Below are positions 2,450 to 29,431 of a stretch of DNA of 45,979 nucleotides, piece after piece (the stretch's first letter is position 1; each line of letters opens with the position of its first letter). The notes below the pieces were generated by a model. That model had not been told where the DNA came from, ran no database searches, and was given only the letters and a program-made list of their open reading frames with translations. This stretch comes from a virus: IMG/VR virus record IMGVR_UViG_3300023094_000013, positions 1 through 45,979 of that record; one strand, given 5' to 3'. The translations under genes and the position numbers were made by a program.

Positions 2450-2478
2450 ACCTTACGCTCCTTATTCGAGATTCACTA
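2450..2478 (-). promoter_or_regulatory. Consensus phage promoter P1
   Basis: Minus-strand -35 TAGTGA (2473-2478), 17-bp spacer starting ATCTCGAAT, -10 TAAGGT (2450-2455). Shares the extended GTAGTGA box and the TCGA-containing spacer with eleven other sites. Drives the leftmost operon. Confidence 0.7.
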
Positions 2479-2486
2479 CTCGGATG

Positions 2487-3191
2487 TTACTGCCACCATC
2501 CCTCGTCGTCTCCGTGCGCCGCCCGGAAAGCCTCCGGACCAGCCTTGCCGATCTTGCGAATCCACAACAGCGCGTGCTTCTTGGCGTCGTTGACGTGGTC
2601 TGGGCCCGGTCGGTACATCCGCAGCGCCTTGAGCCGATCATTCGTGAATGCATTCTTGGCGTCCGAGGGCGACTGCGCATGCAGCGGGGTGCCTCCATTA
2701 AACCGTACACGCCCCATCTCGTCGAGGTCGTGCGGGTTCGGCGGGAGCATCGACAGCCGGTTGCTGATGGCTGCTCGTAGCCGAACCGGACTCAGGAACT
2801 CCCAGTCCATGTTCGCGCTACGGACGACGAACGACTCGATGCCGGTGGCGAGGCCGGGCTCCTGATTGAGAGTGCGCTGCATCCTCAGAAAGCGGTTCAC
2901 TTGTCCGTTGGGGCCGTCCTCAGGGCCGTCGAGGAAGATCTCGCTATAGGCGAGGATCGTCTTCGCGGTGGTCTTGTTCTCGAACAGCGCCCAAGGGTCA
3001 AACCAGACCACAGCCACTCCCGACACCGTTCCCGGGTCGATCCACAACACTCTCGGCCAGAACAGCCACTCGTCTTCGGTTGTCGTGTCCCAGCGGTCTT
3101 CTGTGTCGAGAATCTTGTAATCCGGCAACTTGCCTCTCCTGTTCGGTCGAGGTCGCCGTCTTGCGCCCCTCGTGGTCTTTACGGCGCTCAC
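2487..3191 (-). CDS. RuvC-like Holliday-junction resolvase, 234 aa
   Basis: Probably cuts branched DNA before packaging or during recombination. RNase-H/RuvC fold motifs are in order: VLWIDPGTVSGVAVV with Asp52, a following acidic strand with Glu119 (GIESFVV), and the C-terminal HVNDAKKHALLW with Asp202 and His206, typical of the RuvC DAxxHA helix. The N-terminus is a basic tail (RGARRRPRPNRRG). The start is GTG, overlapping the stop of the small upstream gene (GTGA). Length is somewhat above the 170-190 aa of cellular RuvC, as in other actinophage resolvases. Confidence 0.8.
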   Translation of the reverse strand: MSAVKTTRGARRRPRPNRRGKLPDYKILDTEDRWDTTTEDEWLFWPRVLWIDPGTVSGVAVVWFDPWALFENKTTAKTILAYSEIFLDGPEDGPNGQVNRFLRMQRTLNQEPGLATGIESFVVRSANMDWEFLSPVRLRAAISNRLSMLPPNPHDLDEMGRVRFNGGTPLHAQSPSDAKNAFTNDRLKALRMYRPGPDHVNDAKKHALLWIRKIGKAGPEAFRAAHGDDEGWWQ

Positions 3192-3322
3192 GAGGACGCG
3201 CCCCTACGGGTTTTCAAGGACCAGATCAGCCCTACTACTGCCCCGGCGATCCCGAGGCCGCTAACGCCCAGCAGAGCGAACGCTAGCGGCATCGGGATGA
3301 CCGGCAGGATCTCAGAGAGCAC
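3188..3322 (-). CDS. Small single-pass membrane protein, 44 aa
   Basis: A GTG-started reading frame fills the gap between its neighbours, overlapping upstream by 11 nt and downstream by 4 nt (GTGA). The product is mostly one hydrophobic helix (PLAFALLGVSGLGIAGAVVG) with a basic KTRRG end, so a cytoplasmic C-terminus is expected. The ribosome-binding site is weak, so the exact start is uncertain. Role unknown. Confidence 0.5.
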   Translation of the reverse strand: MLSEILPVIPMPLAFALLGVSGLGIAGAVVGLIWSLKTRRGASS

Positions 3323-3551
3323 GATGGTCCGGTGCGTCGAGCATCTTGAGCAGATCCTCGTACACCTCGATCTTGGCCCTGACGCCGCTCACGTCGACAT
3401 AGCCCGCTTCGAGATTGACGGATTTCAGGTCGAGGATCTGAGCCTTGACGTGATCGCGGATCTTGAGGTGCTTCGCGACGAGGAACTCGTTCTGGCGTTC
3501 CTTGCGGTCGATCTCGGACTGCGCAGCCGCCGCGTTGGTTGCTCTAGACAT
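3312..3551 (-). CDS. Hypothetical helical protein, 79 aa
   Basis: Short, probably all-helical protein (NAAAAQSEIDRKERQNEF, VRAKIEVYEDLLKML), possibly a coiled coil. Its ATG shares the base at 3551 with the stop of the preceding gene. No function can be assigned. Confidence 0.7.
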   Translation of the reverse strand: MSRATNAAAAQSEIDRKERQNEFLVAKHLKIRDHVKAQILDLKSVNLEAGYVDVSGVRAKIEVYEDLLKMLDAPDHRAL

Positions 3552-3919
3552 TACAGCCTCCCTCCTTGGAAGCCATCGGCTCCCGGTTTGAATTTGAATA
3601 TGCGGCGGCTCCCTCGAATCTGGGAGCCGTCCTCGGAATACTCATTGACCGTGTAGCAGTCTCGAGCACCTCCGAGGATCTCTGCGAGCGAGCTCAGGGC
3701 GAACGTAACGCCCGCCCAGCTGGCGACGACGAGGCGCTCCTCAGACCAAGGCTCACCGGGCTGCTCGCGCCAGTCGACCTCGTAGCTCGGAGACTCGAAC
3801 GGGCTCAGCGGCTCGTCCTCCTCGATCTCCTCGCGTTCGCCAGCGCCGAGGACTCCGAGAACCCAGTCCTCGTCGAGCTTGAGCTCGTGAATCTCGGCGT
3901 CGAAGAGCAGCTGGCTCAT
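3551..3919 (-). CDS. Hypothetical protein, 122 aa
   Basis: Unknown. Start at MSQLLFDAEIHELK chosen because it gives the usual ATGA overlap with the upstream gene; seven in-frame residues further up are less likely. Contains an acidic N-terminal third and a more hydrophobic segment (ERLVVASWAGVTFALSSL). No motif recognised. Confidence 0.7.
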   Translation of the reverse strand: MSQLLFDAEIHELKLDEDWVLGVLGAGEREEIEEDEPLSPFESPSYEVDWREQPGEPWSEERLVVASWAGVTFALSSLAEILGGARDCYTVNEYSEDGSQIRGSRRIFKFKPGADGFQGGRL

Positions 3920-4191
3920 AGCCCGATCGCCCACTTCCACAAAGCGACTGCGAACGGCCCGGTGAACGTGAGGAAGATCGCAACAAACACCGAAGTGCCC
4001 ACGACGTTCCAGAAGACCTTCTTCTGAGCCGCGACGGGCTCTCGATCTTCGTCGTCTCCTTCGAGCTCGACCGTCACGTCGTCATACCACTCCTCTTCGG
4101 AGCAGACCGGGCAAACCTCCTTGGAGGCCGTGCCCGAAACAACCCTCTGGATACACTGAGGATCCATCCTATTGTGGAGGAGGGTGCTCAC
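3916..4191 (-). CDS. Hypothetical tail-anchored membrane protein, 91 aa
   Basis: The N-terminal part has a single CPVC knuckle plus an earlier Cys, too few ligands for a full zinc ribbon. An acidic linker (VELEGDDEDREP) leads to one C-terminal transmembrane helix (GTSVFVAIFLTFTGPFAVAL). Overlaps the ThyX gene by 4 nt. Function unknown. Confidence 0.7.
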   Translation of the reverse strand: MSTLLHNRMDPQCIQRVVSGTASKEVCPVCSEEEWYDDVTVELEGDDEDREPVAAQKKVFWNVVGTSVFVAIFLTFTGPFAVALWKWAIGL

Positions 4192-5471: not shown

Positions 5472-5479
5472 TACTTCCT

Positions 5480-5746
5480 CTACTCTTCGATGACTTGGAT
5501 CAGGAGATCCCCAGCGAATTGCTGGTTGTCGTAGAACACCTCGGCTGCGAAGTCCGCAGAGCCGGGGATGAGATCGATGTAGGCCACCGAACCTCGGTCA
5601 TGTATGATCTTGCCGATGGCCTTGGAGACCACGACCTTGAGCTGGTCGAGATCGGTCGGCAGAGCCTTGGTCTCGACTTCGAACGGTTCGATCTGGCGAA
5701 CCTTGCCGCACCGCCCGTTCTTCGCAGTCACCTGATACTTGGCCAC
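5480..5746 (-). CDS. Hypothetical protein, 88 aa
   Basis: GTG start directly after the stop of the upstream gene, with an AGGAGG ribosome-binding site. The sequence alternates strands and helices (MAKYQVTAKNGRCGKV, LDQLKVVVSKAIGKII) and looks like a small alpha/beta fold. No family recognised. Confidence 0.7.
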   Translation of the reverse strand: MAKYQVTAKNGRCGKVRQIEPFEVETKALPTDLDQLKVVVSKAIGKIIHDRGSVAYIDLIPGSADFAAEVFYDNQQFAGDLLIQVIEE

Positions 5747-5962
5747 CTAGTTGTCCTCCTGGTTGTCGTCCTGATCGTAGACCGGGCGTCCACGATTGGC
5801 TTCGCGCATGGCTACGAGCTCAGCCATGACTTGCTCCTTCATGCGGGCGATCCTACGCTCACGACGGCGCTGTCGCAAAACGGAGATGTACACCCATCCC
5901 AGGAACGCCCAGAGCACAGCTGCGAACGCCCACACCACCCACTCGGGCACAGGAGCGCCCAT
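5747..5962 (-). CDS. Small membrane protein, 71 aa
   Basis: The start MGAPVPEWVVWAF overlaps the upstream stop (TGATG). One transmembrane helix (VVWAFAAVLWAFLGWVYISV) is followed by a strongly basic stretch (RQRRRERRIARMK), giving N-out/C-in topology, and an acidic tail. Function unknown. Confidence 0.7.
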   Translation of the reverse strand: MGAPVPEWVVWAFAAVLWAFLGWVYISVLRQRRRERRIARMKEQVMAELVAMREANRGRPVYDQDDNQEDN

Positions 5963-6228
5963 CAGCGGAGTTCCCACTTGAAGTGCAGGAAGGTCACACC
6001 GTCTTCGGAGCGGACTGCGGACATGTGGAGCCAACCCAGCTGAGTCAGCTTGCGGAGACGCTCTTCGGTCTCCGACTCGCCCAGTCCCAGAGCGGCCGAT
6101 GCCGAGCTCTTGGTGATGGTGACGCCGTCTCCGACGATGTCTCGGAGAGTGTCGACGGACTTCACGATCCACGACAGATCGGTGGATTCGCTCTTGAGAG
6201 CCTTAGCTCGCTGCTTCGGTAGTGCCAT
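5962..6228 (-). CDS. Hypothetical winged-helix-like protein, 88 aa
   Basis: First gene after promoter 6281-6310. The order KSSASAALGLGESETEERLRKLTQLGWLH, then a beta hairpin, resembles a small winged helix-turn-helix, so a DNA-binding regulator is possible; this is inference from secondary-structure pattern only. A GGGGAGGATCC ribosome-binding site lies just upstream of the ATG, behind the leader hairpin at 6252-6271. Confidence 0.6.
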   Translation of the reverse strand: MALPKQRAKALKSESTDLSWIVKSVDTLRDIVGDGVTITKSSASAALGLGESETEERLRKLTQLGWLHMSAVRSEDGVTFLHFKWELR

Positions 6229-6251
6229 GATCCGGGATCCTCCCCAGTCGG

Positions 6252-6271
6252 AGCCGGTGTCCTTACCGGCT
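6252..6271 (-). promoter_or_regulatory. Leader hairpin, SD-like AAGGAC in loop
   Basis: In the mRNA a 7-bp stem AGCCGGT/ACCGGCT presents AAGGAC in a six-base loop, between promoter P2 and the start codon at 6228. The true ribosome-binding site lies downstream of it. One of six such leaders. Confidence 0.6.
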
Positions 6272-6280
6272 GATGAACTT

Positions 6281-6310
6281 ACTCTACGCCATGGATTGCG
6301 AGATTCGCTA
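6281..6310 (-). promoter_or_regulatory. Consensus phage promoter P2
   Basis: -35 TAGCGA (6305-6310), 18-bp spacer beginning ATCTCG and ending CATGGCG, -10 TAGAGT (6281-6286). Drives the gene starting at 6228 and the coupled genes through ThyX and the resolvase. Confidence 0.75.
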
Positions 6311-6333
6311 CTTTCTCGACAACCTTTCTTGAA

Positions 6334-7410
6334 TTATTTTCCGAGTGCGCCGCGCTCAGCTGCAGCCTCGGTACGCCCCTTGGAGCGGTTCAGGTTGACG
6401 CTCTCAGCGGCGCTACGCCCGCGACCCGCAGCCGAGTCGTCAAGGTCGTAGTAGCGGATGCCCTTCTGGCGGCGACGGCTGTCGCGCTCTTCCTTCTCCA
6501 GGAACTTCGCTCGCTGAGTCGGCGTCATCGCGTTCAGCATGTCGGCGCGATCCTGACGAGCCTTCTCGCGCTGGCGACGCTGCTCCTCCGGGTCGAGATC
6601 GGGGTGCTCAGAGTAGAACATCGACTTGATTTCCTCGGCCATCGAGCTCAAGGCAAGCGCTGCTCCAGGAATCGTGTCGGCTTCCGAGCGAGCGTCCCGC
6701 GCCAAGTCGCGAATGCGGTTGACGAGACGGCGCTTGAAGCCTTCGATAAAAGACAGTTTGTACACCTGATGAGACTGCGTGGCAACCGGGTTGGTGTCGC
6801 CAACGAGCTTCGCGTGACGCTTGTACGCGCCGATCATGGAGCCCTTGATCTTGCCGGTCGGAACCATGCGCCCGGCGAAGTTCTCTTCGAAGACGCGGGC
6901 GTCCGGCCCGCCGTTGATGACCGAGTAGTTGTTGATCTCGACCCACTTGAATCCGGCGACCTTGAAGTTGTAGACGTTCTCGTCGTAGGACTTATCGGTG
7001 TCCCACTTGGGGTTGATCTTCGACACGAGCTCGTAGCTGACCGACATGAAGAGCATCTCGACCCACGACACGTCTTCCGCAGCGCCGTAGACTTCAGCGT
7101 CCCACTCCAGCGCGACCGAGCAGCGGTTCGCTTCAGCGATGTCGACTAGGATCGTACGGAGAGCCGGAGCGACCGTGTACGACAGCCCCGACATCTTGAT
7201 GGTGCGCTTCTCGGGAGCGCGTCGCTGCTCTTCCGTCTGGTCCATGCGGAGGATGGCTTCGTCGATCGCGTGCTTCGTGATCAGGCGGTTCGCCATGTTC
7301 AGCGCAGTGTCGGCTTCGTGCGCCGGGGTTCCGGGGTGTTCTGCGATCGCCAGAAGGTCGCGAACGCGGTCCATGATCTTCTCTGATGCGGTGTTGGTCG
7401 TGGTGTCCAT
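6334..7410 (-). CDS. DUF2786-domain protein, 358 aa
   Basis: The N-terminus matches the DUF2786 pattern: IMDRVRDLLAIAEHPGTPAHEADTAL... with an AxxLI helix (residues about 12-60). The remainder is a mixed domain ending in a long charged helical tail (EEQRRQREKARQDRADML). DUF2786 proteins are common in actinobacteria and their phages; their role is not established. The gene is a one-gene unit with its own promoter (7467-7495), leader hairpin and GGGAAGGACCCC ribosome-binding region. Confidence 0.8.
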   Translation of the reverse strand: MDTTTNTASEKIMDRVRDLLAIAEHPGTPAHEADTALNMANRLITKHAIDEAILRMDQTEEQRRAPEKRTIKMSGLSYTVAPALRTILVDIAEANRCSVALEWDAEVYGAAEDVSWVEMLFMSVSYELVSKINPKWDTDKSYDENVYNFKVAGFKWVEINNYSVINGGPDARVFEENFAGRMVPTGKIKGSMIGAYKRHAKLVGDTNPVATQSHQVYKLSFIEGFKRRLVNRIRDLARDARSEADTIPGAALALSSMAEEIKSMFYSEHPDLDPEEQRRQREKARQDRADMLNAMTPTQRAKFLEKEERDSRRRQKGIRYYDLDDSAAGRGRSAAESVNLNRSKGRTEAAAERGALGK

Positions 7411-7437
7411 TTTGGGGTCCTTCCCAGTTGGGCTTCC

Positions 7438-7455
7438 GGCCGGATCCTCCCGGCC
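7438..7455 (-). promoter_or_regulatory. Leader hairpin, SD-like GAGGAT in loop
   Basis: Stem GGCCGG/CCGGCC (6 bp) with GAGGAT as loop, between P3 and the start codon at 7410. A separate GGGAAGGACCCC lies next to the ATG. Confidence 0.6.
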
Positions 7456-7466
7456 TCTTGATTACT

Positions 7467-7495
7467 ACTCTACGCCATGAATCTCGAATTGCAAA
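7467..7495 (-). promoter_or_regulatory. Consensus-like phage promoter P3
   Basis: -10 TAGAGT (7467-7472) and 17-bp spacer ATTCGAGAT...CATGGCG, identical in style to the other sites; the -35 position here reads TTTGCA (7490-7495) instead of TAGTGA. Confidence 0.65.
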
Positions 7496-7505
7496 ATCGG
7501 ATCTT

Positions 7506-7529: not shown

Positions 7530-7537
7530 TGACCGTG

Positions 7538-7960: not shown

Positions 7961-8010
7961 TTTGATTCCTTTGCTCATGGGCCGGGATCCTCCCCTGCCT
8001 TCTAGATTCA

Positions 8011-8039
8011 ACTATACTCCAGAAGTCGAGTATTCACTA
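8011..8039 (-). promoter_or_regulatory. Consensus phage promoter P4
   Basis: -35 TAGTGA (8034-8039), 17-bp spacer with ACTCGA, -10 TATAGT (8011-8016). ATACTC and GAGTAT within it form an inverted repeat across the spacer. Confidence 0.75.
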
Positions 8040-8058
8040 CTCTATTCTGGAATTGTTT

Positions 8059-8454: not shown

Positions 8455-8505
8455 TTTGTTTCCTTCGGTCTCTGGCTCGGGGTCCTTCCCTTGCCTTATA
8501 ACTCT

Positions 8506-8535
8506 ATCATACTCCATGATTGTCGAGTTCCGCTA
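8506..8535 (-). promoter_or_regulatory. Consensus phage promoter P5
   Basis: -35 TAGCGG (8530-8535), 18-bp spacer AACTCGAC...CATGGAG, -10 TATGAT (8506-8511). Lies just downstream of the tRNA gene and drives the gene starting at 8454, whose leader contains GGGAAGGACCCC. Confidence 0.75.
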
Positions 8536-8565
8536 CTTATTCTCGAAAATACTTTGGATTACTTT

Positions 8566-8641
8566 TGGTACACCCGGTGGGACTCGAACCCACACTGAAC
8601 GGAGTTTAAACCCGTCGCCTCTGCCATTGGGCTACGAGTGC
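8566..8641 (-). tRNA. tRNA with anticodon UAA (Leu codon UUA), class I shape
   Basis: A 76-nt cloverleaf with encoded CCA: acceptor GCACTCG/CGGGTGT, D arm GCC/GGC, anticodon stem ACGGG/TCCGT with loop TTTAAAC (U33, anticodon UAA, A37), T arm GTGGG-TTCGAGT-CCCAC, discriminator A. UAA reads UUA, a codon rare in this GC-rich genome. Bacterial leucine tRNAs are class II with a long variable arm, whereas this one has only 5 nt (TCAGT), so the amino acid it carries is uncertain. Confidence 0.85.
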
Positions 8642-8669: not shown

Positions 8670-8679
8670 AGTTTACCCG

Positions 8680-9030: not shown

Positions 9031-9047
9031 GTTTGCCTCTCGTTTGG

Positions 9048-9067
9048 GAGCCGGATCCTCCCGGCTC
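9048..9067 (-). promoter_or_regulatory. Leader hairpin, SD-like GAGGAT in loop
   Basis: Perfect 7-bp stem GAGCCGG/CCGGCTC with loop GAGGAT, 17 nt upstream of the start codon at 9030, in addition to the proximal GAGAGG. Confidence 0.65.
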
Positions 9068-9075
9068 ATAAGACT

Positions 9076-9104
9076 AGTATACTCCAGATCTCGAGTTTTC
9101 GCTA
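9076..9104 (-). promoter_or_regulatory. Consensus phage promoter P6
   Basis: -35 TAGCGA (9099-9104), 17-bp spacer AAACTCGAGATCTGGAG, -10 TATACT (9076-9081). It lies within a larger inverted repeat (9079-9121). Confidence 0.8.
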
Positions 9105-9121
9105 CCCGAGATCTGGAGTAT
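9079..9121. repeat. 15-bp inverted repeat overlapping promoter P6
   Basis: Arms ATACTCCAGATCTCG and CGAGATCTGGAGTAT are perfectly complementary, with a 13-nt loop that carries the -35 box. The structure starts right after the stop of the upstream gene (9125), so as RNA it could end that transcript while as DNA it is the next promoter. Confidence 0.75.
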
Positions 9122-9124
9122 TTA

Positions 9125-9784
9125 TTACTTGGCTTCGGGCTTGTGCTTCGGGATTCGGAAAGCGCTGTTCGAGACGCCGGTGCGCTTCCCGCAGTCCTCG
9201 CAGGTCGCGTAGTTGCCCGAGTAGTATCCGCTGCGACGCGGCAGGTCGGAGCGGATGGCCTTGCCGGAGCCGGAGCAGACGTTCGGGTCGTTGACGGTTC
9301 CGTTGGTCCACTCGATCGGAGCCGACGGGAAGCAGATCGTGCAGAGGATCGATCCGTGCTCAGCGACTGCTTCGGCTTCGGTCAGGCCGGAAACCTTCGG
9401 GAGCCATCCGATGCGGGTTGTCGGGCGGAAGGACGAGCAGTGCTGACTACGGTGGATGTGCTCGACCATGAAGAAGCGGTTCCAGCCGGTGTACTCGTCT
9501 TTGTCGATCTGGACTGCGATATCGGCCAGCGGGCGGGCCGCAGCGGTGATCTCGATGATGCGAGCTTCGGCCTTCTCGATCTTGTTGGTGTAGTAGTCGA
9601 AGTCGACGCTGCCTTCGAAGTTCTTGTCGTAAGACGCGCGGCGCTTCATGGCCTTCTTGGACTCGGCGATGATCTTCTTCTCGGCCTTGGTCTCGTCCAT
9701 GGCAACGTGGTAGGCTTCCCAAGCAGCGGCGATGCGGGTGTCGATCTCGCGAGCGGTAGCGATCTCAGAGGCGCGGTTCGTCAT
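9125..9784 (-). CDS. Hypothetical zinc-finger protein, 219 aa
   Basis: The N-terminal half is a long charged helix, probably coiled coil (DETKAEKKIIAESKKAMKRR; IEKAEARIIEITAAARPL). The C-terminal half has paired Cys knuckles: CTIC (about residue 148), Cys near 168 and CEDC (about 196), the layout of a zinc-binding module. Possibly DNA- or RNA-binding; no named family. GAAGGA lies 7 nt before the ATG, behind the leader hairpin, with two tandem promoters upstream. Confidence 0.7.
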   Translation of the reverse strand: MTNRASEIATAREIDTRIAAAWEAYHVAMDETKAEKKIIAESKKAMKRRASYDKNFEGSVDFDYYTNKIEKAEARIIEITAAARPLADIAVQIDKDEYTGWNRFFMVEHIHRSQHCSSFRPTTRIGWLPKVSGLTEAEAVAEHGSILCTICFPSAPIEWTNGTVNDPNVCSGSGKAIRSDLPRRSGYYSGNYATCEDCGKRTGVSNSAFRIPKHKPEAK

Positions 9785-9802
9785 GATAAGTCCTTCGGTC
9801 GG

Positions 9803-9820
9803 AGCCGGATCCTCCCGGCT
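9803..9820 (-). promoter_or_regulatory. Leader hairpin, SD-like GAGGAT in loop
   Basis: Stem AGCCGG/CCGGCT with loop GAGGAT, 18 nt upstream of the start codon at 9784; the regular GAAGGA site follows it. Confidence 0.6.
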
Positions 9821-9829
9821 GATATAAGA

Positions 9830-9859
9830 ACTCTACTCCATGAGTGTCCAGTTTCACTA
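9830..9859 (-). promoter_or_regulatory. Consensus phage promoter P7
   Basis: -35 TAGTGA (9854-9859), 18-bp spacer ending CATGGAG, -10 TAGAGT (9830-9835). Downstream member of a tandem pair for the gene at 9784. Confidence 0.75.
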
Positions 9860-9916
9860 CTCCATTCTGAAAGTATTTTGGAAATCTTTTTAAATTGGAT
9901 TTTGGGCACCAGGCTC

Positions 9917-9945
9917 ATTCTACTCTGAATCTCGAGTTTCCGCTA
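9917..9945 (-). promoter_or_regulatory. Consensus phage promoter P8
   Basis: -35 TAGCGG (9940-9945), 17-bp spacer AAACTCGAGATTCAGAG, -10 TAGAAT (9917-9922). Begins immediately after the stop of the 9946 gene. The roughly 55-nt stretch to P7 is AT-rich and has no reading frame. Confidence 0.7.
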
Positions 9946-10191
9946 CTACCAATTCTCAAGCTCGATATCAGGATGCTCGTAGCTGGTTACTATTGTGCCT
10001 CCGACCGTGACGATACCAACGTCGGGCCAATCATGCAAAGTGCCAGGAGTCATAGCTACACTGCTCGAGTTGCGACGCTCGGCTTCTACTCGCAGTTCTT
10101 CCTGGATGGCTGCGAACGGACGCATGGCCACCTTGATCTCTGATGTCTGCCGACTGCGGATGACGCCAGTCAGGTAAAGTCGTCTTGCCAT
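9946..10191 (-). CDS. Hypothetical protein, 81 aa
   Basis: Unknown. Start MARRLYLTGVIRSRQ is preceded by AGAGGAGATC. Mostly beta-like with one charged helix (PFAAIQEELRVEAERR) and a VGIVTVGGTIVTSY strand pair. It lies 18 nt downstream of the tRNA-like element, which is therefore its 5' leader unless it is processed out. Confidence 0.65.
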   Translation of the reverse strand: MARRLYLTGVIRSRQTSEIKVAMRPFAAIQEELRVEAERRNSSSVAMTPGTLHDWPDVGIVTVGGTIVTSYEHPDIELENW

Positions 10192-10209: not shown

Positions 10210-10319
10210 TGGAAACGGTTGGACTTGAACCAACGCACTAGGCTCTGTGCTTCGGGGTCTTGACCTCGCCTCTCAGCGACGCGACCACGCCTATGCTCTA
10301 CCATCTGAGCTACGTTCCC
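10210..10319 (-). tRNA. tRNA-like element with 45-nt anticodon loop
   Basis: Acceptor GGGAACG/CGTTTCC, D arm GCTC/GAGC with AGATGGTA loop, T arm GTTGG-TTCAAGT-CCAAC and discriminator A all form properly. The only matching anticodon stem is TAGGC/GCCTA, which encloses 45 nt instead of 7, so about 38 nt are inserted. No CCA is encoded (ACAAG follows). It may be a decayed tRNA, an intron-bearing one, or a tRNA-like leader of the gene at 9946. The amino acid cannot be assigned. Confidence 0.55.
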
Positions 10320-12317: not shown

Positions 12318-12469
12318 CAGAGCACCGCCCCGGTGTTCTCGTCCTTGATCGCAACCTCAAGATCAGTTGCGTTGGCTTCGAGAAGCTGTGCGAACTCAAC
12401 AGCCTTACGAACGTCGTCGAGGGTGCCGAGAGGGGCGCCTGTCGCGGCGTTGAACAATTTGTAACGCAT
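12317..12469 (-). CDS. Hypothetical protein, 50 aa
   Basis: Begins MRYKLFNAATGAPLGTL and ends ENTGAVL. A short alpha/beta sequence with a helix VRKAVEFAQLLEAN. GAAAGGACTCC lies before the ATG. First gene after promoter P9; the exact overlap with the next gene and the ribosome-binding site support it being real. Function unknown. Confidence 0.65.
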   Translation of the reverse strand: MRYKLFNAATGAPLGTLDDVRKAVEFAQLLEANATDLEVAIKDENTGAVL

Positions 12470-12488
12470 TATGGAGTCCTTTCCATTT

Positions 12489-12504
12489 CCGGTGTCCTTA
12501 CCGG
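12489..12504 (-). promoter_or_regulatory. Leader hairpin, SD-like AAGGAC in loop
   Basis: Stem CCGGT/ACCGG with loop AAGGAC between P9 and the start codon at 12469. The proximal site is GAAAGGACTCC. Confidence 0.55.
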
Positions 12505-12513
12505 GCTAAGACA

Positions 12514-12542
12514 AGTATGCCCCAACCCGGCCCATTTCACTA
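12514..12542 (-). promoter_or_regulatory. Consensus phage promoter P9
   Basis: -35 TAGTGA (12537-12542), 17-bp GC-rich spacer, -10 CATACT (12514-12519). Drives the operon ending with the surface protein. Confidence 0.65.
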
Positions 12543-12557
12543 CACTATTTCGAATAT

Positions 12558-14879
12558 TTATTCATCGGACTTTACAACCCACAGTTTGTTGGTGTGGATT
12601 GTCTTCCCGAGGAACTCGTAGGTGAACGCCGAGACGATGATGTAGTCGTGCCCGATCTTCGCATCCCAGAGCTGAGACTTGAACTCTGGATACTTGAACC
12701 GGGGCACCTTCACAGTCATGAGCCCCTGCGCGTCCTCCAAGTACAACGTCATGGAATCCTTCAGGTGTGGATCCTTGACGGTCTCCGGATCCAGATCCTC
12801 ACCTGTGCGCGAACGATGGTTCTCGAACAAATCCTGCAAGTTCCGATTCTTCAGAAGCCCGACGATGACGCCCTTCCACTTGACAGCTTCGTAGGGCACA
12901 TCGTCGCTGTTCTGGCCGGGGTACGGCGCGCCTTGAAGATCTCCGTCCAGGACGGCCTTCTTGATGGCTGCGATGTCGCGCTCGACCTTGTTGATGCCGA
13001 AGGGGTCGTCCTCCGAGGAGAACTCCTCGATCTTCTCGATCGTCTTCGGGCCGACGCCCTTGATGCTGAGCATGTCCTTCCACTCGCGGATGCCGACCTC
13101 GCGCTCAAACTCGCCAATGAGCGCCGCAGTCTTGTCGCCCACGCCGGGGATCTGTAGGAAGCCCGCTCGCACACCCTCCGGCGTCGGAGCCCACGTGTGC
13201 TTCGATTCTCCAGCCTTCGGAGGGAGCACCTGATAGTTCCGCTTGAAGCGTTTGTCCTTCATGTCACGCATCAGGAGGACTTGCTTGTTGACGTCCTTCG
13301 TCTTGTGGAGCTGAGCTGCGTAGAACTCCAGCGGGTGGTGCACCTTCAGCCACATGGCCCAGAACCCCAGCATCGAGTAGCTGACACAGTGTGCGATGTT
13401 GAAGGCGTATGTTCCAGCCGTAGCCATGCGCTTCCAGATCTCACGGGCGACCGGCTCGGTCATCCCGTCCACCTGCATAGCTCCGACGAGGAAGTCGTCC
13501 CACATGGCGTTGAACGCCGACTCGCCCTGCTTCGAGGAGATGATCTTGCGGATCTTCGATGCATGAGTCCACGGGAACTTACCGATGTCGCGGGTGATCT
13601 GAAGGATCTGCTCCTGATAGATGATCTGGCCTTCGGTGGCTGCGCAGATGCGCTCCACGACCGGGTGCAACGGAACGTGCTTCTGGCGACCGTGCCGGAT
13701 GGCGATGTAGTCTCCGGTCGACCCGGAATGCAAGGGGCCAGGACGAGCCAGCGCGTTCACCGCAGCGAGGTCCATGAAGGTCTTCGGCTTGAGCTCCTGC
13801 GTCACCATCTTCATCGTGCGACCTTCGAACTGGAAGATGCCGACCACGTCTCCGACCTCGAACGCGGCGAGCGTCTTCGGGTCGTCCATCGGAATGTCGT
13901 AGAGGTCGTCAAGGTCCATTCCGAGGAACTCAAGCGCGATCCGGATCATGCCCATCGTCGTCAGGCCCAGCGCGTCCAGCTTCATCAGACCCAGATACTC
14001 GCCGTCGTACTTGTCGACCGAGAGCACCTGAACCGAGTTGTTGTTCGCGCCGACGTTGTCCTTGCCGTAGGTGGCGACGTACTTCCAGAGCGGCTCCGCC
14101 CCAATCACCAGCCCAGCTGCGTGGACACCGAACGACTTGTAGTTACCTTCGAGCTCCATCGACCTGTACATGACGGGGTGGCGCTCGAAGAACTCCTTCA
14201 CTTGCGGGAACATCTCCACGGTGTCCTCGATGCCCGCGTCGAACCGGCTGTCACCGCCTGAGCGCTCGACGAGAAATTCCTTCGCCGCCTCGACCTCGAA
14301 CTTCGGCACCTCGTAGACGCGAGCCACGTCGTCCATGGCGTTCTTGCCTCGATAGCGTGTGAAGGTGCCGATGTTGCCGACGCGGTCAGCGCCGTACTTC
14401 CGGATCATGATCTGGCGGACGCCGTCTCGCATGTCGTCGTCGAAGTCGAGGTCGATGTCGGGAAGGTCATTACGATTCGGGTCGATGAAACGTTCGAACA
14501 GCATGAGCGGATACTCGAGAGGATTGACCTCGGTGATCCTGAGCAGATAACAGACGAGCGACGCCGCTGCGGAACCACGCGCCGGGCCCACGCCAATGCC
14601 CTCGTCCTTGGCCTGTCTGACCACATCCGACAGCACGGCGAAGTAGTCGCCGAAGTCCTTCAGAAGGATGAGCTCCATCTCGTACTTGACGCGCTCGCCG
14701 TAGCGCTTCTGCTCGGAGCGCGAGAGCGACTTATCGAAGCCGCGATACTTCCAGCCCTCACGCAGCCAGTGCCACAAGATCTCCTCGGTGGAGACCGGGG
14801 TGTCTAGCGGGATTGAAACATCGACGGATCCCGACGCGGTCGACGAGGCGGCCACGGCGCGAGGTCGGCGCGTGTGCCG
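12558..14879 (-). CDS. dnaE: DNA polymerase III alpha subunit, polymerase core (second reading frame)
   Basis: About 774 residues with the complete DnaE catalytic region: VGPARGSAAASLVCY, LFERFIDPNRNDLPDIDLDF (the active-site Asp pair), the fingers, a helix-hairpin-helix pair (IPGVGDKTAALIGEF, IKGVGPKTIEKIEEF) and an OB-like C-terminus. There is no ATG with a ribosome-binding site at its start, and the open frame runs back under the PHP part in the -1 frame. It is best explained as the continuation of the PHP gene by a -1 shift, for example at CCCC (14879-14882), or by an assembly error. A rare TTG start near 14779 preceded by GAGGAG is a weak alternative. This would be the phage's own replicative polymerase. 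Confidence 0.85.
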   Translation of the reverse strand, partial: RHTRRPRAVAASSTASGSVDVSIPLDTPVSTEEILWHWLREGWKYRGFDKSLSRSEQKRYGERVKYEMELILLKDFGDYFAVLSDVVRQAKDEGIGVGPARGSAAASLVCYLLRITEVNPLEYPLMLFERFIDPNRNDLPDIDLDFDDDMRDGVRQIMIRKYGADRVGNIGTFTRYRGKNAMDDVARVYEVPKFEVEAAKEFLVERSGGDSRFDAGIEDTVEMFPQVKEFFERHPVMYRSMELEGNYKSFGVHAAGLVIGAEPLWKYVATYGKDNVGANNNSVQVLSVDKYDGEYLGLMKLDALGLTTMGMIRIALEFLGMDLDDLYDIPMDDPKTLAAFEVGDVVGIFQFEGRTMKMVTQELKPKTFMDLAAVNALARPGPLHSGSTGDYIAIRHGRQKHVPLHPVVERICAATEGQIIYQEQILQITRDIGKFPWTHASKIRKIISSKQGESAFNAMWDDFLVGAMQVDGMTEPVAREIWKRMATAGTYAFNIAHCVSYSMLGFWAMWLKVHHPLEFYAAQLHKTKDVNKQVLLMRDMKDKRFKRNYQVLPPKAGESKHTWAPTPEGVRAGFLQIPGVGDKTAALIGEFEREVGIREWKDMLSIKGVGPKTIEKIEEFSSEDDPFGINKVERDIAAIKKAVLDGDLQGAPYPGQNSDDVPYEAVKWKGVIVGLLKNRNLQDLFENHRSRTGEDLDPETVKDPHLKDSMTLYLEDAQGLMTVKVPRFKYPEFKSQLWDAKIGHDYIIVSAFTYEFLGKTIHTNKLWVVKSDE

Positions 14880-15766
14880 GGGTAGCGGATGCGATCCATC
14901 TTGGGCAAGGTTACGTTGCATCGTTCTGCAATCTTCTCGGTGTTGAGTACTGCGGTCTGGGCCTCGCCACGAGTGAGGCCGGTCTTGATGAGGTCGTTGA
15001 TGATCTCGTCGTCGGACAGCGGATAGGTCAGAAGGATGTTGTACTCCCACTCGGCCTCCGTCTGAGCGACGGTGCTGCCTCCGCGCGACGCCGTGTGCAG
15101 AATCTTCTGCATCTCGTTCTGCTCGGGACGAGGATAGTGCACGTCCGCAGTCGCCACGAGCGGGATGTCGAATTCCTTCGACCATGCGGCGTACTGCTTG
15201 TTGATGATGCAGGTGCGCGGCAGCCCCGGGAAGCGCTGGACCTCGAGATAGTAGCGGTCGCCGAGGAGACGCTTGTATCCGAGCATCACCTTCACGGCTT
15301 CGTCGTAGTCGCCCTCCTCGATGCCCTTGCCTCCGAGGAGCGTGCACGCGAGATGGCTGTCGGAGCAACCCGATGTGACGATGAGTCCCTTGGAGTTCTT
15401 CTGGAACTCACCGCCGAGCACCGTCGGATAGCGGTAGAAGTTCGAGTTCCAGGCGACGGTGGTGAGCTTGTTCAGATTCTGATAGCCCTCCTGATCCATG
15501 GCGAGGACGGTCATGTGCCACTTGCGCATGTTGTTGACTTCGCGCATGTCCGACGGAGCCGTGTAGACCTCCTGTCCGAAGATGGGCTTGATGCCCGCCT
15601 CGAGACAGGCGATCTCCCACTTGACGTGAGCCGAGACGTTGCCGTGGTCTGTGATCGCCCCGGCCTTCATGCCGAGCTCCTTGATGCGCGCTACGTGGTC
15701 TACAGGGAGGCCGAAGCCATCCCCGTAGGAGTAGGTGCAGTGCGTGTGAAGAGAGACGTAGTGCAT
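14804..15766 (-). CDS. dnaE: DNA polymerase III alpha subunit, PHP domain (first reading frame)
   Basis: Start at MHYVSLHTHCTYSYGDG, sharing its A with the upstream stop (TAATG). The PHP domain has metal-binding His/Asp motifs in order: LHTHC, TDHGNVSAH, DVHYPRPEQNEMQK. The similarity to DnaE continues to LPKMDRIRYP (about residue 295). After this the frame turns into an Arg/Pro-rich, unrelated tail and stops at 14804, while the expected next DnaE segment (DTPVSTEEILWHWL) is in the -1 frame. Both parts together would be about 1,070 aa, close to full-length DnaE. Confidence 0.85.
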   Translation of the reverse strand: MHYVSLHTHCTYSYGDGFGLPVDHVARIKELGMKAGAITDHGNVSAHVKWEIACLEAGIKPIFGQEVYTAPSDMREVNNMRKWHMTVLAMDQEGYQNLNKLTTVAWNSNFYRYPTVLGGEFQKNSKGLIVTSGCSDSHLACTLLGGKGIEEGDYDEAVKVMLGYKRLLGDRYYLEVQRFPGLPRTCIINKQYAAWSKEFDIPLVATADVHYPRPEQNEMQKILHTASRGGSTVAQTEAEWEYNILLTYPLSDDEIINDLIKTGLTRGEAQTAVLNTEKIAERCNVTLPKMDRIRYPGTRADLAPWPPRRPRRDPSMFQSR

Positions 15767-16428
15767 TAGACCTTCTCGAGCCACTCCGGGTTGGTCCAGA
15801 ACACTCTTCTCAGGTCAAGAGGATCTACGCAGAGCGCTGACATGCCATCTGTCTTCGAGCGACTCTGATCGATGTCGAGGAGAGTGTAATCGGATCCCTT
15901 CTCGAGATGTTGCTTGAGGCGAACCGAATCTCCAATCGTCAGCTTCGTCCCGTCTTCTCTCTGATATGTTCTGGTCTGGACGGGATGGAGCGTGATAGCC
16001 TGACCGTCGGCGATCAGTTCTACGCTGTCGTGGCCCTCGGCAACCCCGGCCATGTTCTCGTCTGCGGCGGCGCGGTCACGTCGGCGCATCTCCAGCGTCA
16101 GGAAGCAGTGACCGATGAGATCGTTGATGATCTCGTCGACGCCTTCGGTCTTCAGCACCGACTCGTCTGCGTCCCACATAGCTCGCTTGAGCTTGATCAT
16201 CTTCCGATACATGTCGGAGAACTGCCCTCGCGCGCCGAGCTCGAAGGCCGCGCCCGATCCGTATTCCGAGTTCTTCGACGAGAAGAGCTCGAGCCATGCC
16301 GGAAGGTGCTCGGAGACGATCGTCACGAGCTCGGGTGAGTCTCCCGGCTCAGTCGTGAGCGAGATGTGCATCTCCTCTCCGGTGTACATGTTGGACTGCG
16401 AGACAGACGGTCGGACGACGATGTTCAT
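15766..16428 (-). CDS. Nmad1-like (DUF1599) nucleotide-modification-associated protein, 220 aa
   Basis: The N-terminal about 120 residues have the MazG-related Nmad1 pattern: ELFSSKNSEYGSGAAFELG, GQFSDMYRKMIKLKRAMWD, then an EG.DEIINDLIGHCFLTLEM helix. Nmad1 is found in phage DNA-modification and nucleotide clusters. The C-terminal part (REDGTKLTIGDSVRLKQHL) looks like a small beta barrel that I cannot name. Overlaps the HAD gene by 4 nt and DnaE by 1 nt, so it is translated together with the polymerase. Confidence 0.65.
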   Translation of the reverse strand: MNIVVRPSVSQSNMYTGEEMHISLTTEPGDSPELVTIVSEHLPAWLELFSSKNSEYGSGAAFELGARGQFSDMYRKMIKLKRAMWDADESVLKTEGVDEIINDLIGHCFLTLEMRRRDRAAADENMAGVAEGHDSVELIADGQAITLHPVQTRTYQREDGTKLTIGDSVRLKQHLEKGSDYTLLDIDQSRSKTDGMSALCVDPLDLRRVFWTNPEWLEKV

Positions 16429-17087: not shown

Positions 17088-17875
17088 GAGAGACGAGCCT
17101 CCACGTCGTAGAATGCTGCGTCGGACAGGACGCCCTTCTTCCACGCGCCGTAGCGCCCAACCCGCATTAGACGCTGGATCGGAACCGGGCTGCAGGTGCA
17201 GTCGGTCATGATCGGCTTGCGCACCTTCCAGACATGGCCAGGGGCGTTGGGTCGGTGGTCGAGAGGATACTCGGTGTTCTCCCAGCCGTGGATCCGACTC
17301 GCCCGATACCACCAGTCGTCCGGCTCGCCTGAGCAGACGACGAGATTGTCGATCGCAGCGCCGTCCTCTTCAGCAGTGAACGCGCCCTTGTATCGGATGA
17401 AGTCCGTGACGTACACATCCTGAGAGTCGAAGGTGTGTCGCATGTTCGTGCAGAGAGCCTCGGCCGGGATCGTCGAGACGACGAGCTCCATACCGCGAAG
17501 CACGTCGTTGTTGCGGAGCACCTCTGAGCTCGCATCCCACGGCTTGATCAGACCGTGATACTCCGACCATGCGCGGTCGTACGCCTCGCGGATGTCCCAT
17601 GCGTCGTGCACTCCGACCAGCGTCTCAGGCGAGACCTGCAGGTCGTGGTCGTCGCCGTAGACCTTCTGACGATAGCCCTCCACGGTGCCCTCGAGCTCGT
17701 AGGTGATCTTGAACGAGTCACCGGACAGACCGGGGATCGGGCGGTGCAGATACTGAGCGCCACGCATGAACGACTTGCGCGGCTTCGACAGGATGGTCAC
17801 GTCGTGACCATGTCCGACGGCTGCATGTGCTGCGAACAGACCGGCTGGACCAGCACCCAGGATTGCGACTTTCAC
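17084..17875 (-). CDS. FAD/NAD(P)-binding oxidoreductase-like protein, 263 aa
   Basis: Begins with a textbook Rossmann dinucleotide site, MKVAILGAGPAGLFAAHAA (GxGxxG) followed by HDVTIL. The rest is shorter than typical flavin oxidases and ends with a Cys pair (TDCTCSP) and a RVGRYGAWKKG block like the C-terminal substrate region of UDP-galactopyranose-mutase or amine-oxidase-type enzymes. Located between a DNA-glycosylase-like gene and the HAD/Nmad1 pair, a role in base or nucleotide chemistry is possible, but the substrate is unknown. Confidence 0.65.
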   Translation of the reverse strand: MKVAILGAGPAGLFAAHAAVGHGHDVTILSKPRKSFMRGAQYLHRPIPGLSGDSFKITYELEGTVEGYRQKVYGDDHDLQVSPETLVGVHDAWDIREAYDRAWSEYHGLIKPWDASSEVLRNNDVLRGMELVVSTIPAEALCTNMRHTFDSQDVYVTDFIRYKGAFTAEEDGAAIDNLVVCSGEPDDWWYRASRIHGWENTEYPLDHRPNAPGHVWKVRKPIMTDCTCSPVPIQRLMRVGRYGAWKKGVLSDAAFYDVEARLS

Positions 17876-18414
17876 TAGAGATTCTCGATTCGTTTCTTGA
17901 TGGATGCGGGCAGGACACGCTCGCCACTGGCGAGAAGATCTCGGTCGTACTTCGAGACGAACAGGCCGTAGCCGCCGTCCTCGTCGACGAACGGCCAGAC
18001 GTAGGGCATGCGGGCGGGCGTCTGTGCCCAGAGCTCAGAGTACTGCTCGGGCCAGCGCCGGGCGAGATTGCTCCGGTGCGACCGCAGCACGTCTGCATCT
18101 CCGAGCCACGGCGGCAGCATAAACTCGTCGTCGCCCAGCGCGTTCGCCACGGATTTCGCAGTCAGATGCTGCTGCCCAGCTACGCCACGAGTATGGAGCT
18201 CGAACGAGATCGCAGCTGCGTATGCGGCGAGCGACTTCTCGTAGCCCATCCACATCTTCGAGACCGGATGAGCGAGCGTCTCTTCGCGGGTGTCCGACTC
18301 GTACACGAGATCGGTCAGCAACACGATCGACTCTTCCATTGTCTGGAAGAGCAGGTCGGTCTCCAAGTCGGAAGCCGTGTCGAGCAGAGACGCCCGCGTC
18401 AGCCAAGTCATCAT
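17875..18414 (-). CDS. MSMEG_6728-like / pyrimidine-dimer-glycosylase-like protein, 179 aa
   Basis: Matches the small actinobacterial family related to T4 endonuclease V: MMTWLTRASLLDTA at the N-terminus, HPVSKMWMGYEKSLAAYAAA, LPPWLGDADVLRSHRSNL and MPYVWPFVDEDGGYG at the expected spacing. Members are predicted to act on UV-damaged pyrimidines; activity here is inferred. Two adjacent ATGs; the start overlaps the TGA of the 40-aa upstream gene. Confidence 0.72.
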   Translation of the reverse strand: MMTWLTRASLLDTASDLETDLLFQTMEESIVLLTDLVYESDTREETLAHPVSKMWMGYEKSLAAYAAAISFELHTRGVAGQQHLTAKSVANALGDDEFMLPPWLGDADVLRSHRSNLARRWPEQYSELWAQTPARMPYVWPFVDEDGGYGLFVSKYDRDLLASGERVLPASIKKRIENL

Positions 18415-18533: not shown

Positions 18534-18667
18534 GCGCTCAGTCCATTGTACAGACGGGCGCACATGGAGCACCAGTAGTCGTCTTCTCCCATGGGAGCAG
18601 AGAGCGCGTGCGACTCTCCGGGCATGTTGCAGAGATTGCCATCACCTTGATCAATGTGGTATCGCAT
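18530..18667 (-). CDS. Small Cys-containing protein, 45 aa
   Basis: First gene after promoter P10, with GGGAAGGACCCCGAA-ATG. The sequence begins MRYHIDQGDGNLCNMPGES and ends with WCSMCARLYNG. The C/H pattern (C13, CxxC at 33-36) suggests a mini zinc site. Overlap with the following gene and a complete promoter-leader unit support it being real. Confidence 0.65.
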   Translation of the reverse strand: MRYHIDQGDGNLCNMPGESHALSAPMGEDDYWCSMCARLYNGLSA

Positions 18668-18688
18668 TTCGGGGTCCTTCCCGGTTGG

Positions 18689-18708
18689 GCGCCAGATCCT
18701 CCTGGCGC
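18689..18708 (-). promoter_or_regulatory. Leader hairpin, SD-like GAGGAT in loop
   Basis: Perfect 7-bp stem GCGCCAG/CTGGCGC with loop GAGGAT, 21 nt upstream of the start codon. The stem differs in sequence from other copies but is compensated on both sides, so pairing is conserved rather than sequence. Confidence 0.7.
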
Positions 18709-18717
18709 GATCCTTCT

Positions 18718-18747
18718 ACCTTACCCCGTAATTGGGATTCGGCGCTA
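18718..18747 (-). promoter_or_regulatory. Consensus phage promoter P10
   Basis: -35 TAGCGC (18742-18747, overlapping the stop of the upstream gene), 18-bp spacer, -10 TAAGGT (18718-18723). Drives the nucleotide-metabolism/polymerase operon. Confidence 0.65.
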
Positions 18748-18984
18748 CTTCGTAATCTGGACGTGAGTGTAGCCGTTGTCTCCGATGAACTCTTCTACGA
18801 TCTCCGCATCCAGAAGCTCAGTTACGGCGTTGTCGTAATCGAGTTCGATCCGGTCGGTGACATATCCGACGTAGTTGGCTGCGACCATTGTTGGCAGGTC
18901 GTCTGCCATGGTCGCGCCTGACGCTTCGAGATACTTGACAACCCGCTTGGCTCGGATGCTGAGGGTCTTGCCGTTGATGTCCAT
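18745..18984 (-). CDS. Hypothetical protein, 79 aa, leaderless
   Basis: Unknown helical protein (SIRAKRVVKYLEASG; DYDNAVTELLDAEIVEEF) with a possible small winged-helix pattern. There is no ribosome-binding site: the -10 box TAGAGT of promoter P11 ends 6 nt before the ATG, so transcription should begin at or next to the A of the ATG. Confidence 0.65.
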   Translation of the reverse strand: MDINGKTLSIRAKRVVKYLEASGATMADDLPTMVAANYVGYVTDRIELDYDNAVTELLDAEIVEEFIGDNGYTHVQITK

Positions 18985-18990: not shown

Positions 18991-19019
18991 ACTCTACGCC
19001 ATCAATCTCGAATTCACTA
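18991..19019 (-). promoter_or_regulatory. Consensus phage promoter P11 (leaderless output)
   Basis: -35 TAGTGA (19014-19019), 17-bp spacer ATTCGAGAT...GATGGCG, -10 TAGAGT (18991-18996). Only TCTCTT separates the -10 box from the ATG at 18984. Confidence 0.8.
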
Positions 19020-19026
19020 CTCCATT

Positions 19027-23399: not shown

Positions 23400-23402
23400 G
23401 GG

Positions 23403-24466: not shown

Positions 24467-24468
24467 GA

Positions 24469-25781: not shown

Positions 25782-25804
25782 GTGTTCTCCTTGTGAGAAT
25801 TGGA

Positions 25805-25841: not shown

Positions 25842-25844
25842 ATG

Positions 25845-26369: not shown

Positions 26370-26424
26370 TTGGTACTCCTTGGTTATTTGGATTTCGTCT
26401 TACTCGGTCGAGCTGACGAGATTT

Positions 26425-26453
26425 ACTTTACCCCATGCATTGTCAGAACGGGG
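26425..26453 (-). promoter_or_regulatory. Possible promoter P13 for the recombination operon
   Basis: -10 TAAAGT (26425-26430) preceded by CATGGGG, the conserved 3' end of the spacer seen at the other sites, but the -35 position reads CCCCGT, not TAGYGA. It may need an activator, perhaps at the adjoining inverted repeats. Confidence 0.4.
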
Positions 26454-26487
26454 ACTTTCTTCGAAGAAAGTTGGAACTTTCTTTCGA
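26454..26487. repeat. Overlapping inverted repeats upstream of the recombination operon
   Basis: ACTTTCTTC/GAAGAAAGT forms a perfect 18-bp palindrome (26454-26471). Its right half also pairs with a third half-site (AGAAAGTT-GG-AACTTTCT, from 26464). Three half-sites thus give two mutually exclusive hairpins, or an operator array next to P13. It also follows the stops at 26488 and 26516 and may end transcription there. Confidence 0.7.
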
Positions 26488-26727
26488 TTATCTACGCATG
26501 TCCCATCCGCGCCCGTCAGATACTCGGGTTTGGCTTTCGGACTCGTCTGCGATGGACGACTCGGTTGCTATCCGATCCGGGTCGGGCTCCTGTGGTGGCT
26601 GCGTCGACCGGCCGAACTGCAACTCTTCGAACCTTTTTCGTGCGACGCGGTTCCGACGGCTCTGCACGACTGCGTACGTCGAGAGCAGAAGCGACAGGCT
26701 CGCTATCCACAAACTGATTGATTCCAT
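26488..26727 (-). CDS. Possible nested membrane protein, 79 aa
   Basis: Lies out of frame inside the 3' end of the helicase gene (212-nt overlap) and extends 28 nt past it. It has its own GAGGAG ribosome-binding site 6 nt before the ATG. It starts with a clear transmembrane helix (MESISLWIASLSLLLSTYAV) followed by basic residues (QSRRNRVARKRF). In the same stretch the helicase tail is low-complexity. Real gene likely but unproven. Confidence 0.5.
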   Translation of the reverse strand: MESISLWIASLSLLLSTYAVVQSRRNRVARKRFEELQFGRSTQPPQEPDPDRIATESSIADESESQTRVSDGRGWDMRR

Positions 26728-28657: not shown

Positions 28658-28833
28658 TGAGCCTTCTTCGGTGGTCTACGGAATCGAACCTGACTGCGTG
28701 AACAGTAGATGCGCTCGTCGGAATTGTTCGGCAGGAAGAACAGGAACTTGCTGTTGTCGAGATCAGTGAAGATCCGACCCTGTCCTTTCCCGGAAACATA
28801 TCCTACTCCGACGAGCACACCCAGCGTAGCCAT
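28654..28833 (-). CDS. Hypothetical small protein, 59 aa
   Basis: Start MATLGVLVGVGYVSGKG chosen for the TAATG overlap with the upstream gene. Short hydrophobic N-terminus, then polar with a basic C-terminus (SQVRFRRPPKKAQ). Function unknown. Confidence 0.6.
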   Translation of the reverse strand: MATLGVLVGVGYVSGKGQGRIFTDLDNSKFLFFLPNNSDERIYCSRSQVRFRRPPKKAQ

Positions 28834-28964
28834 TACCGCACGACCCATCGGACAAACATGCCCGCGACGCTCAGCAGGGCTGGCCGTAGCGCCACGAGAA
28901 GCTCGGCGGCTACGCGGGCCTGAGCTACGGCTTCCGCGTCCTCCTGCCAGCGCGTAGCGGCCAT
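28833..28964 (-). CDS. Hypothetical small protein, 43 aa
   Basis: Start MAATRWQEDAEAVAQ overlaps the upstream TGA (TGATG); the stop overlaps the next ATG. The C-terminal half is hydrophobic and basic (LRPALLSVAGMFVRWVVR), perhaps membrane-associated. Support comes from exact coupling on both sides. Confidence 0.6.
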   Translation of the reverse strand: MAATRWQEDAEAVAQARVAAELLVALRPALLSVAGMFVRWVVR

Positions 28965-29359
28965 CAGCGCTGCACCATCTCGACGGTGACGCCGTGGCGG
29001 GCGATGCGGTTCGCGATCCACTCGGCGGTGCGACCTTCTCCGACGCGACGGGTCAGCTCCTGGCTGTAGAGAGCGACAGTGTTGATCGCCCAGACCGCAC
29101 GGGCGTGTGCGGAAAGGAACTCTTCCGTCTGAGTGGCGTCGATCTCGGCCTTGATCTGCTCGCCGGATTTGCCGAAGGTGTTCGCGAAGACTTCGTCCAC
29201 AGCGTCGTGTCCTGCAGTGTAAGCGTCCTGGATCTCGGCGAAGCCCTGAACAGCCATGTCGATCATGTGAGCGGGGCTGTCCGACATCGACATGTGCGAC
29301 GGGATTACGAAGAGCGAGACCGGGTACTTCGACTCGGTGGTCTTGGTGGTTGCGTTCAT
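28964..29359 (-). CDS. Hypothetical helical protein, 131 aa
   Basis: Unknown, mainly helical (MIDMAVQGFAEIQDAYTAGH; FLSAHARAVWAINTVALYSQ). Start supported by GGGAAGGACCCCAGATC-ATG. First gene of the operon leading to the SNF2-type helicase, under promoter 29403-29431. Confidence 0.7.
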   Translation of the reverse strand: MNATTKTTESKYPVSLFVIPSHMSMSDSPAHMIDMAVQGFAEIQDAYTAGHDAVDEVFANTFGKSGEQIKAEIDATQTEEFLSAHARAVWAINTVALYSQELTRRVGEGRTAEWIANRIARHGVTVEMVQR

Positions 29360-29402
29360 GATCTGGGGTCCTTCCCATTCAGTGGACTTGCTTACAAGAA
29401 GA

Positions 29403-29431
29403 ACTCTACGCCACAATTCGAGATTTCACTA
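29403..29431 (-). promoter_or_regulatory. Consensus phage promoter P14
   Basis: -35 TAGTGA (29426-29431), 17-bp spacer AATCTCGAATTGTGGCG, -10 TAGAGT (29403-29408). Sits 14 bp beyond the late-operon terminator, so it restarts transcription for the helicase operon. Confidence 0.8.

Follow-up and report, generated by a model that had tools for sequence, protein, structure and literature searches.

About a dozen times along its genome, a virus of soil bacteria repeats one control unit, which likely combines a promoter for the host SigA-type RNA polymerase, palindromic operators for a dimeric phage protein and leaders that form hairpins. The identity of the promoters is the firmest part of this reading and the hairpins come second; the regulator we infer. 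The window, that is, the whole stretch of 45,979 nucleotides analysed here, is a 46-kb viral record related to the cluster EF phages of Microbacterium (genus Krampusvirus). Its closest DNA matches are ~74% identical across 13% of a 12-kb query, the set of DnaE, primase, ThyX and RuvC genes is common to the window and Krampus, and in the DnaE tree it falls into a nine-row clade with Krampus, Aesir and TinyMiny (support 100/100). The genes are oriented on the minus strand, with structural genes at ~30–46 kb and DNA-metabolism and small unknown genes at 0.4–29 kb. The DnaE-like polymerase is split over two overlapping ORFs, 14804–15784 and 12558–15368 (12558–15784 of the window, minus strand), and is annotated as two separate genes in the relatives.

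A first-pass annotation had proposed a family of twelve minus-strand promoters, and all twelve sites are present and lie outside genes. A two-block PWM trained solely on the sites of relatives (Krampus, TinyMiny, L013, L015 and L018) was used to scan both strands of the window and recovered 10 of the 12 at 21.8–31.5 bits, all intergenic and on the minus strand. This is far above background: the best non-site score anywhere in the window is 16.5 bits, and first-order Markov sequence yields ~0.4 matches per window above 14 bits. The pattern GTAGYG-N14-22-TAnnnT gave 11 matches on the minus strand of the window and none on the plus strand; one of these, at 34003, is a chance match inside a gene. 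An exact full-motif scan of viral contigs returned chance matches alone (L009–L011). The first coordinate given for each site below (e.g. 2450–2479 or 29403–29432) is the last base of the minus-strand -10 hexamer.

2450–2479, minus strand: promoter (ESAS-type), 24.2 bits, upstream of ORF 1770–2360; no leader hairpin found
6281–6311, minus strand: promoter, 27.9 bits, upstream of the winged-helix gene 5962–6228
7467–7496, minus strand: promoter with -35 TTTTGCA, below the PWM threshold, upstream of the DUF2786 gene 6334–7410
8011–8040, minus strand: promoter, from 28.1 bits and leader length; likely start codon 7960
8506–8536, minus strand: promoter, 26.2 bits; likely start codon 8454
9076–9105, minus strand: promoter, 29.7 bits; likely start codon 9030
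9830–9860, minus strand: promoter of gene 9125–9784, 31.5 bits; the orthologous Krampus gene has a site at L021:27131
9917–9946, minus strand: tandem upstream promoter of gene 9125–9784, 27.0 bits, without a hairpin of its own
12514–12543, minus strand: promoter downstream of the DnaE gene, 21.8 bits; likely start codon 12469; Krampus counterpart L021:23602
18718–18748, minus strand: weak promoter match, 13.8 bits, followed by two leader hairpins; likely start codon 18667
18991–19020, minus strand: promoter, 26.9 bits; +1 falls on ATG 18984, 6 nt past the -10 box
29403–29432, minus strand: promoter heading the DNA-metabolism operon, 30.0 bits; SAS-coupled start codon 29359; Krampus L021:5294 in the same place

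The -35 box GTAGYGA and -10 box TAnnnT originally described hold at most sites, the exceptions being TTTTGCA at 7467–7496 and CATACT in place of TAnnnT at 12514–12543. All spacers are 17–18 bp long, as claimed, and of the motifs ascribed to the spacer, CTCGA is present in 6 of the 12 and ATGGMG in 5; TCGA or TCGC occurs in 9, and TGGMG, which includes ATGGMG, in 8. At most sites the -10 region reads GTAGAG or a close variant. Sites 18718–18748 and 7467–7496 were accepted on context because leader hairpins follow both, and the latter also because it lies upstream of the DUF2786 gene, the orthologue of which in TinyMiny has a TTTGC-type site (L023:26315) that agrees with it in place and in the type of -35 box. 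The transcript from site 18991–19020 is probably leaderless. ORF 28833–29378, initially taken as the gene behind site 29403–29432, was replaced by the SAS-coupled start at 29359. Syntenic copies of the sites are present in Krampus, Aesir and TinyMiny, and pattern searches of the whole Krampus and Aesir records gave 12 sites each, all on the coding strand, including one in the structural arm at around 7.7–7.9 kb. The statement that the late operon lacks the motif applies to the window, whose structural operon contains no scoring site, but not to the complete relatives, which carry one further copy in the structural arm, near 7.2–7.9 kb. Directly upstream of promoter 8506–8536 lies a tRNA-Leu (taa) gene (8566–8641, minus strand). 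A second tRNA-like gene at 10210–10319 (minus strand) scores 53 bits against the Rfam tRNA model and was not called by ARAGORN; its anticodon arm has a 45-nt stretch in place of the usual 7 nt, and the ~38 nt inserted in the anticodon loop resemble an intron or a degenerate tRNA.

Judged by their sequence, the window promoters are ESAS/SAS elements of the cluster EF type, a precedent that the first-pass annotation had missed together with the hairpin leaders; its proposal of a promoter family is supported. In cluster EF phages, the SAS GGGAAAGGACCCC and an ESAS centred around GTAGAG have been likened to those of cluster K, with their roles unknown (PMC7302621); the word promoter is absent from the main text of that paper. 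As in AnnaSerena and Krampus (PMC7302621), a GTAGAG-centred motif precedes a start-codon motif, GGGAAAGGACCCC in those phages, the elements are intergenic and confined to one strand, and the phages are homologous with several syntenic genes. The window differs in its -35 box, mostly TAGTGA, in its operator core, TCGA versus TGCA or CGCA, and in the 5'-end hairpins with variable stems that it adds. A search for the 13-bp SAS GGGAAAGGACCCC with up to one mismatch found the sequence GGGAAGGACCCC, with one A fewer, four times in the window, three of them just before start codons; the other leaders keep the hairpin form only. The ESAS centred on GTAGAG lies immediately upstream of the SAS, and the PWM trained on relatives transfers to the window. 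The -35 TAGYGA, the spacer of 17–18 bp and the -10 TAnnnT indicate that the ESAS would serve as a promoter.

Compared with sigma-70-type promoters, which have a TTGnnn-like -35 box at 16–19 bp, the window sites share the -10 box TAnnnT and the spacing, and their -35 box is TAGYGA. The box is TAGTGA or TAGCGA in the window and TAGCGA in Krampus, and equivalent positions carry TTGCGA in the sister phage TinyMiny and TTTGCC or TTTGCG in L012. The difference from TTGACA would be accounted for if GTAGYGA were read by a phage sigma-like factor, as the first-pass annotation had suggested, or by an activator that substitutes for -35 recognition, and the distribution of one promoter-linked gene points the same way.

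5962–6228, minus strand: gene for an 88-aa winged-helix protein, candidate regulator, behind promoter site 6281–6311

Orthologues of this gene occur in all five EF-type GTAGYGA phages (the window, Krampus, with L021:28750–29097, Aesir, L015 and L018), and it is absent from both fully searched TTTGC-type records, L012 and TinyMiny. However, searches of seven phages (the window and six related ones) revealed neither region 2 nor region 4 of Sigma70, TTGCGA occupies equivalent sites, and TAGCG promoters occur in the more distant contigs G009, G011 and G012 with no detectable winged-helix gene, which weakens the case that this protein specifically reads GTAGYGA. We regard a phage-encoded sigma factor or such an activator as quite unlikely. 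Because TTGCGA is close to TTGACA and none of the seven phages encodes a Sigma70 region, the host SigA-type polymerase appears to be the simpler reader. The winged-helix protein is no more than a candidate for the regulator of the promoters: AlphaFold predicts a winged helix (pLDDT 84–89 over the fold), and Foldseek matches it to winged-helix regulators with weak E-values (best 0.005). Searches of PHROGs, Pfam and NCBIfam revealed no regulator among the tested promoter-linked proteins. The gene at 17875–18414, downstream of site 18718–18748, had been a candidate because it is common to SAS-bearing phages; it was rejected on account of its match to the MSMEG_6728 / pyrimidine-dimer glycosylase type.

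The conserved spacer had been taken to bind a second protein, and the idea of a DNA-bound regulator is sustained by a palindromic spacer consensus and by an upstream copy at about half of the sites. When ten window spacers were aligned by hand on TCGA, their consensus GAAACTCGAnATTC (O2) proved symmetric (r 0.85; p 2e-4 with all columns permuted, p 0.003 with the core fixed). The spacers of TinyMiny (p 0.02) yield a related but different palindrome, as do those of Krampus (p 0.04 over all columns), the Krampus consensus being less symmetric than that of the window. A matrix made from the window spacers and symmetrised finds a second copy (O1) upstream of the -35 box (z 4.9, p 0.001), and the Krampus spacers find O1 in Krampus (z 5.1, p 0.001); the combined Krampus and TinyMiny spacers do not find the upstream copies of the window (p 0.44). 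High-scoring O1 copies are mostly centred 9–11 bp before the -35 box. In the mean profile, peaks at +11/+12 and -10/-11 lie ~22 bp or about two helical turns apart, and secondary ones coincide with the -35 and -10 boxes. About half of the sites have a clear O1, and the palindrome takes a different form in each phage. The clearest cases are the following.

9079–9121, minus strand: 15-bp perfect inverted repeat ATACTCCAGATCTCG-N13-CGAGATCTGGAGTAT around the -35 box, spanning both operators, read from the sequence
9927–9940, minus strand: clearest copy of operator O2, GAAACTCGAGATTC, from the palindrome test

Could these motifs merely set promoter strength, as a UP element or an extended -10, with no regulator involved? 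Scored site by site, the spacer palindromes of the window are no better than shuffled ones (p 0.43), although they are significant in Krampus (p 5e-4), TinyMiny (p 0.01) and L015 (p 0.04), and many upstream regions are A+T-rich. Such an explanation is nevertheless unlikely, given that the motifs have a specific sequence and a symmetric consensus, occur twice with similar spacing, and vary between phages yet keep their symmetry. These observations support the view that the conserved spacer is, as a consensus, one copy of a palindromic operator, and the paired palindromes flanking the -35 box would fit a dimeric phage regulator.

At nine sites the likely start codon, picked partly from the SAS itself, lies 43–56 nt past the -10 box, giving uniform leaders of 37–50 nt if transcription starts 7 nt after the -10 box. 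Each of these leaders contains one or two hairpins with a 6-nt loop, RAGGAY, that carries the Shine-Dalgarno core; hairpins of the 5'-end type occur in eight leaders and start-proximal ones in five, with both in four. No hairpins were found at sites 2450–2479, 9917–9946 and 18991–19020.

6251–6272, minus strand: leader hairpin AGCCGGT(AAGGAC)ACCGGCT, from stem/covariation analysis and covariance model
6229–6250, minus strand: AUG-proximal SAS hairpin, from folding, covariance model and leader layout
7436–7457, minus strand: leader hairpin, from folding and covariance model
7409–7430, minus strand: AUG-proximal SAS hairpin TGGG(AAGGAC)CCCA, from folding and covariance model
7979–8000, minus strand: leader hairpin, from covariance model
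8474–8495, minus strand: leader hairpin, from covariance model
9047–9068, minus strand: leader hairpin GAGCCGG(GAGGAT)CCGGCTC, from folding and covariance model
9801–9822, minus strand: leader hairpin, from folding and covariance model
12486–12507, minus strand: leader hairpin CCGGT(AAGGAC)ACCGG, from sequence and folding
12468–12489, minus strand: AUG-proximal SAS hairpin ATGGA(AAGGAC)TCCAT, a compensatory variant, from folding and covariance model
18688–18709, minus strand: leader hairpin GCGCCAG(GAGGAT)CTGGCGC, from folding and covariance model
18666–18687, minus strand: AUG-proximal SAS hairpin, from folding and covariance model
29360–29381, minus strand: AUG-proximal SAS hairpin, from covariance model

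Stems around AGGA are longer in the leaders of the window and of its relatives than they are in coding sequence (mean 3.6 versus 2.1 pairs, p 4e-6). Covariation was assessed on 17 window sequences with no selection for stems, leaving out two AGGAs that overlap the hairpin at 18700: 77.6% of cells are paired versus 51.8% after shuffling (0 of 500 shuffles), there are 20 double-sided changes versus 6.5 in shuffled sequence, and the signal is lost on a one-base slide. A covariance model built from 13 of the 17 hairpin sequences, i.e. from the hairpins it is asked to find, recovers 12 of its 13 at 23.2–27.6 bits, with a sole other window match at 17.0. By folding energy, most leaders are overall no better than shuffled sequence. 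The leader elements are palindromic in DNA and close to the transcription start, and might hence be regarded as DNA operators, terminators or protective 5' hairpins and not as translational elements. We consider this very unlikely, since the stems vary from site to site with compensatory changes around a fixed RAGGAY loop, the opposite of what a DNA-binding site would show, the hairpins that were read are not followed by a T-run, and the loop is the ribosome-binding core.

ESAS and SAS were described in cluster K mycobacteriophages with their role left open (PMC3203893), and for Adephagia, a phage of that cluster, later work interpreted the ESAS as a SigA-like promoter that contains an imperfect inverted repeat of 15 bp (PMC11373665). 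In the window as in cluster K, a dyad lies within a SigA-like promoter, and after the promoter comes an SAS that contains the SD and is bounded by GGG...CCC (PMC3203893; PMC11373665). In Adephagia, however, the arms of the inverted repeat overlap TTGACA and the -10 box, whereas in the window the -35 box sits between two operators, and the sequences differ. The cluster K arrangement of 17-bp imperfect inverted repeats with a 4–13 bp spacer and the SAS GGGATAGGAGCCC is not present in the window; site 9076–9105 is the sole one with a comparable 15-bp repeat, and the consensus and geometry differ from cluster K. SAS motifs of the form GGGAAGGA..CC are absent from Wollypog and contigs L029, L031 and L064. 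In the distant viral contigs L107, L108 and L109 the TAGCG promoter recurs, in several cases together with a CTGCAG-type core; downstream of it the contigs have a TTACTGTA-like sequence in common, but no GGGAAGGA..CC motif. Regulation of the CsrA/RsmA type uses GGA-loop hairpins in leaders, one of them at the ribosome-binding site, and the window leaders share this layout. No CsrA protein, which a CsrA regulon would require in phage or host, was detected in the seven phages; the Corynebacterium glutamicum control gave none either.

In the mechanism that we propose, host SigA-type RNA polymerase would read each promoter and start ~7 nt downstream of the -10 box. Up to two operators per site, O1 centred 9–11 bp upstream of the -35 box and O2 in the spacer, would be bound by a dimeric phage DNA-binding protein that jointly times the early and middle genes; repression is slightly favoured because O2 sits between the -35 and -10 boxes. 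In five leaders, the folded AUG-proximal ribosome-binding site may couple translation to opening of the hairpin or to an RNA-binding factor. A more speculative and rather unlikely reading is a regulon with two layers, in which a phage protein at paired operators would control transcription and a second factor on the RAGGAY-loop hairpins would control translation of many of the same genes; this would be CsrA-like logic in phages without CsrA.

SAS and ESAS elements, known since 2011 from Mycobacterium and then from Microbacterium phages, have no established function. New here are the site-to-site variation, which provides covariation evidence for the SAS as an RNA hairpin, the indication that the ESAS combines a promoter and paired operators, and a named candidate gene for the regulator. 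The best-supported reading is that these elements form a coordinated early/middle regulon, in which polymerase and a phage dimer would act together with hairpin-gated translation in many of the leaders.
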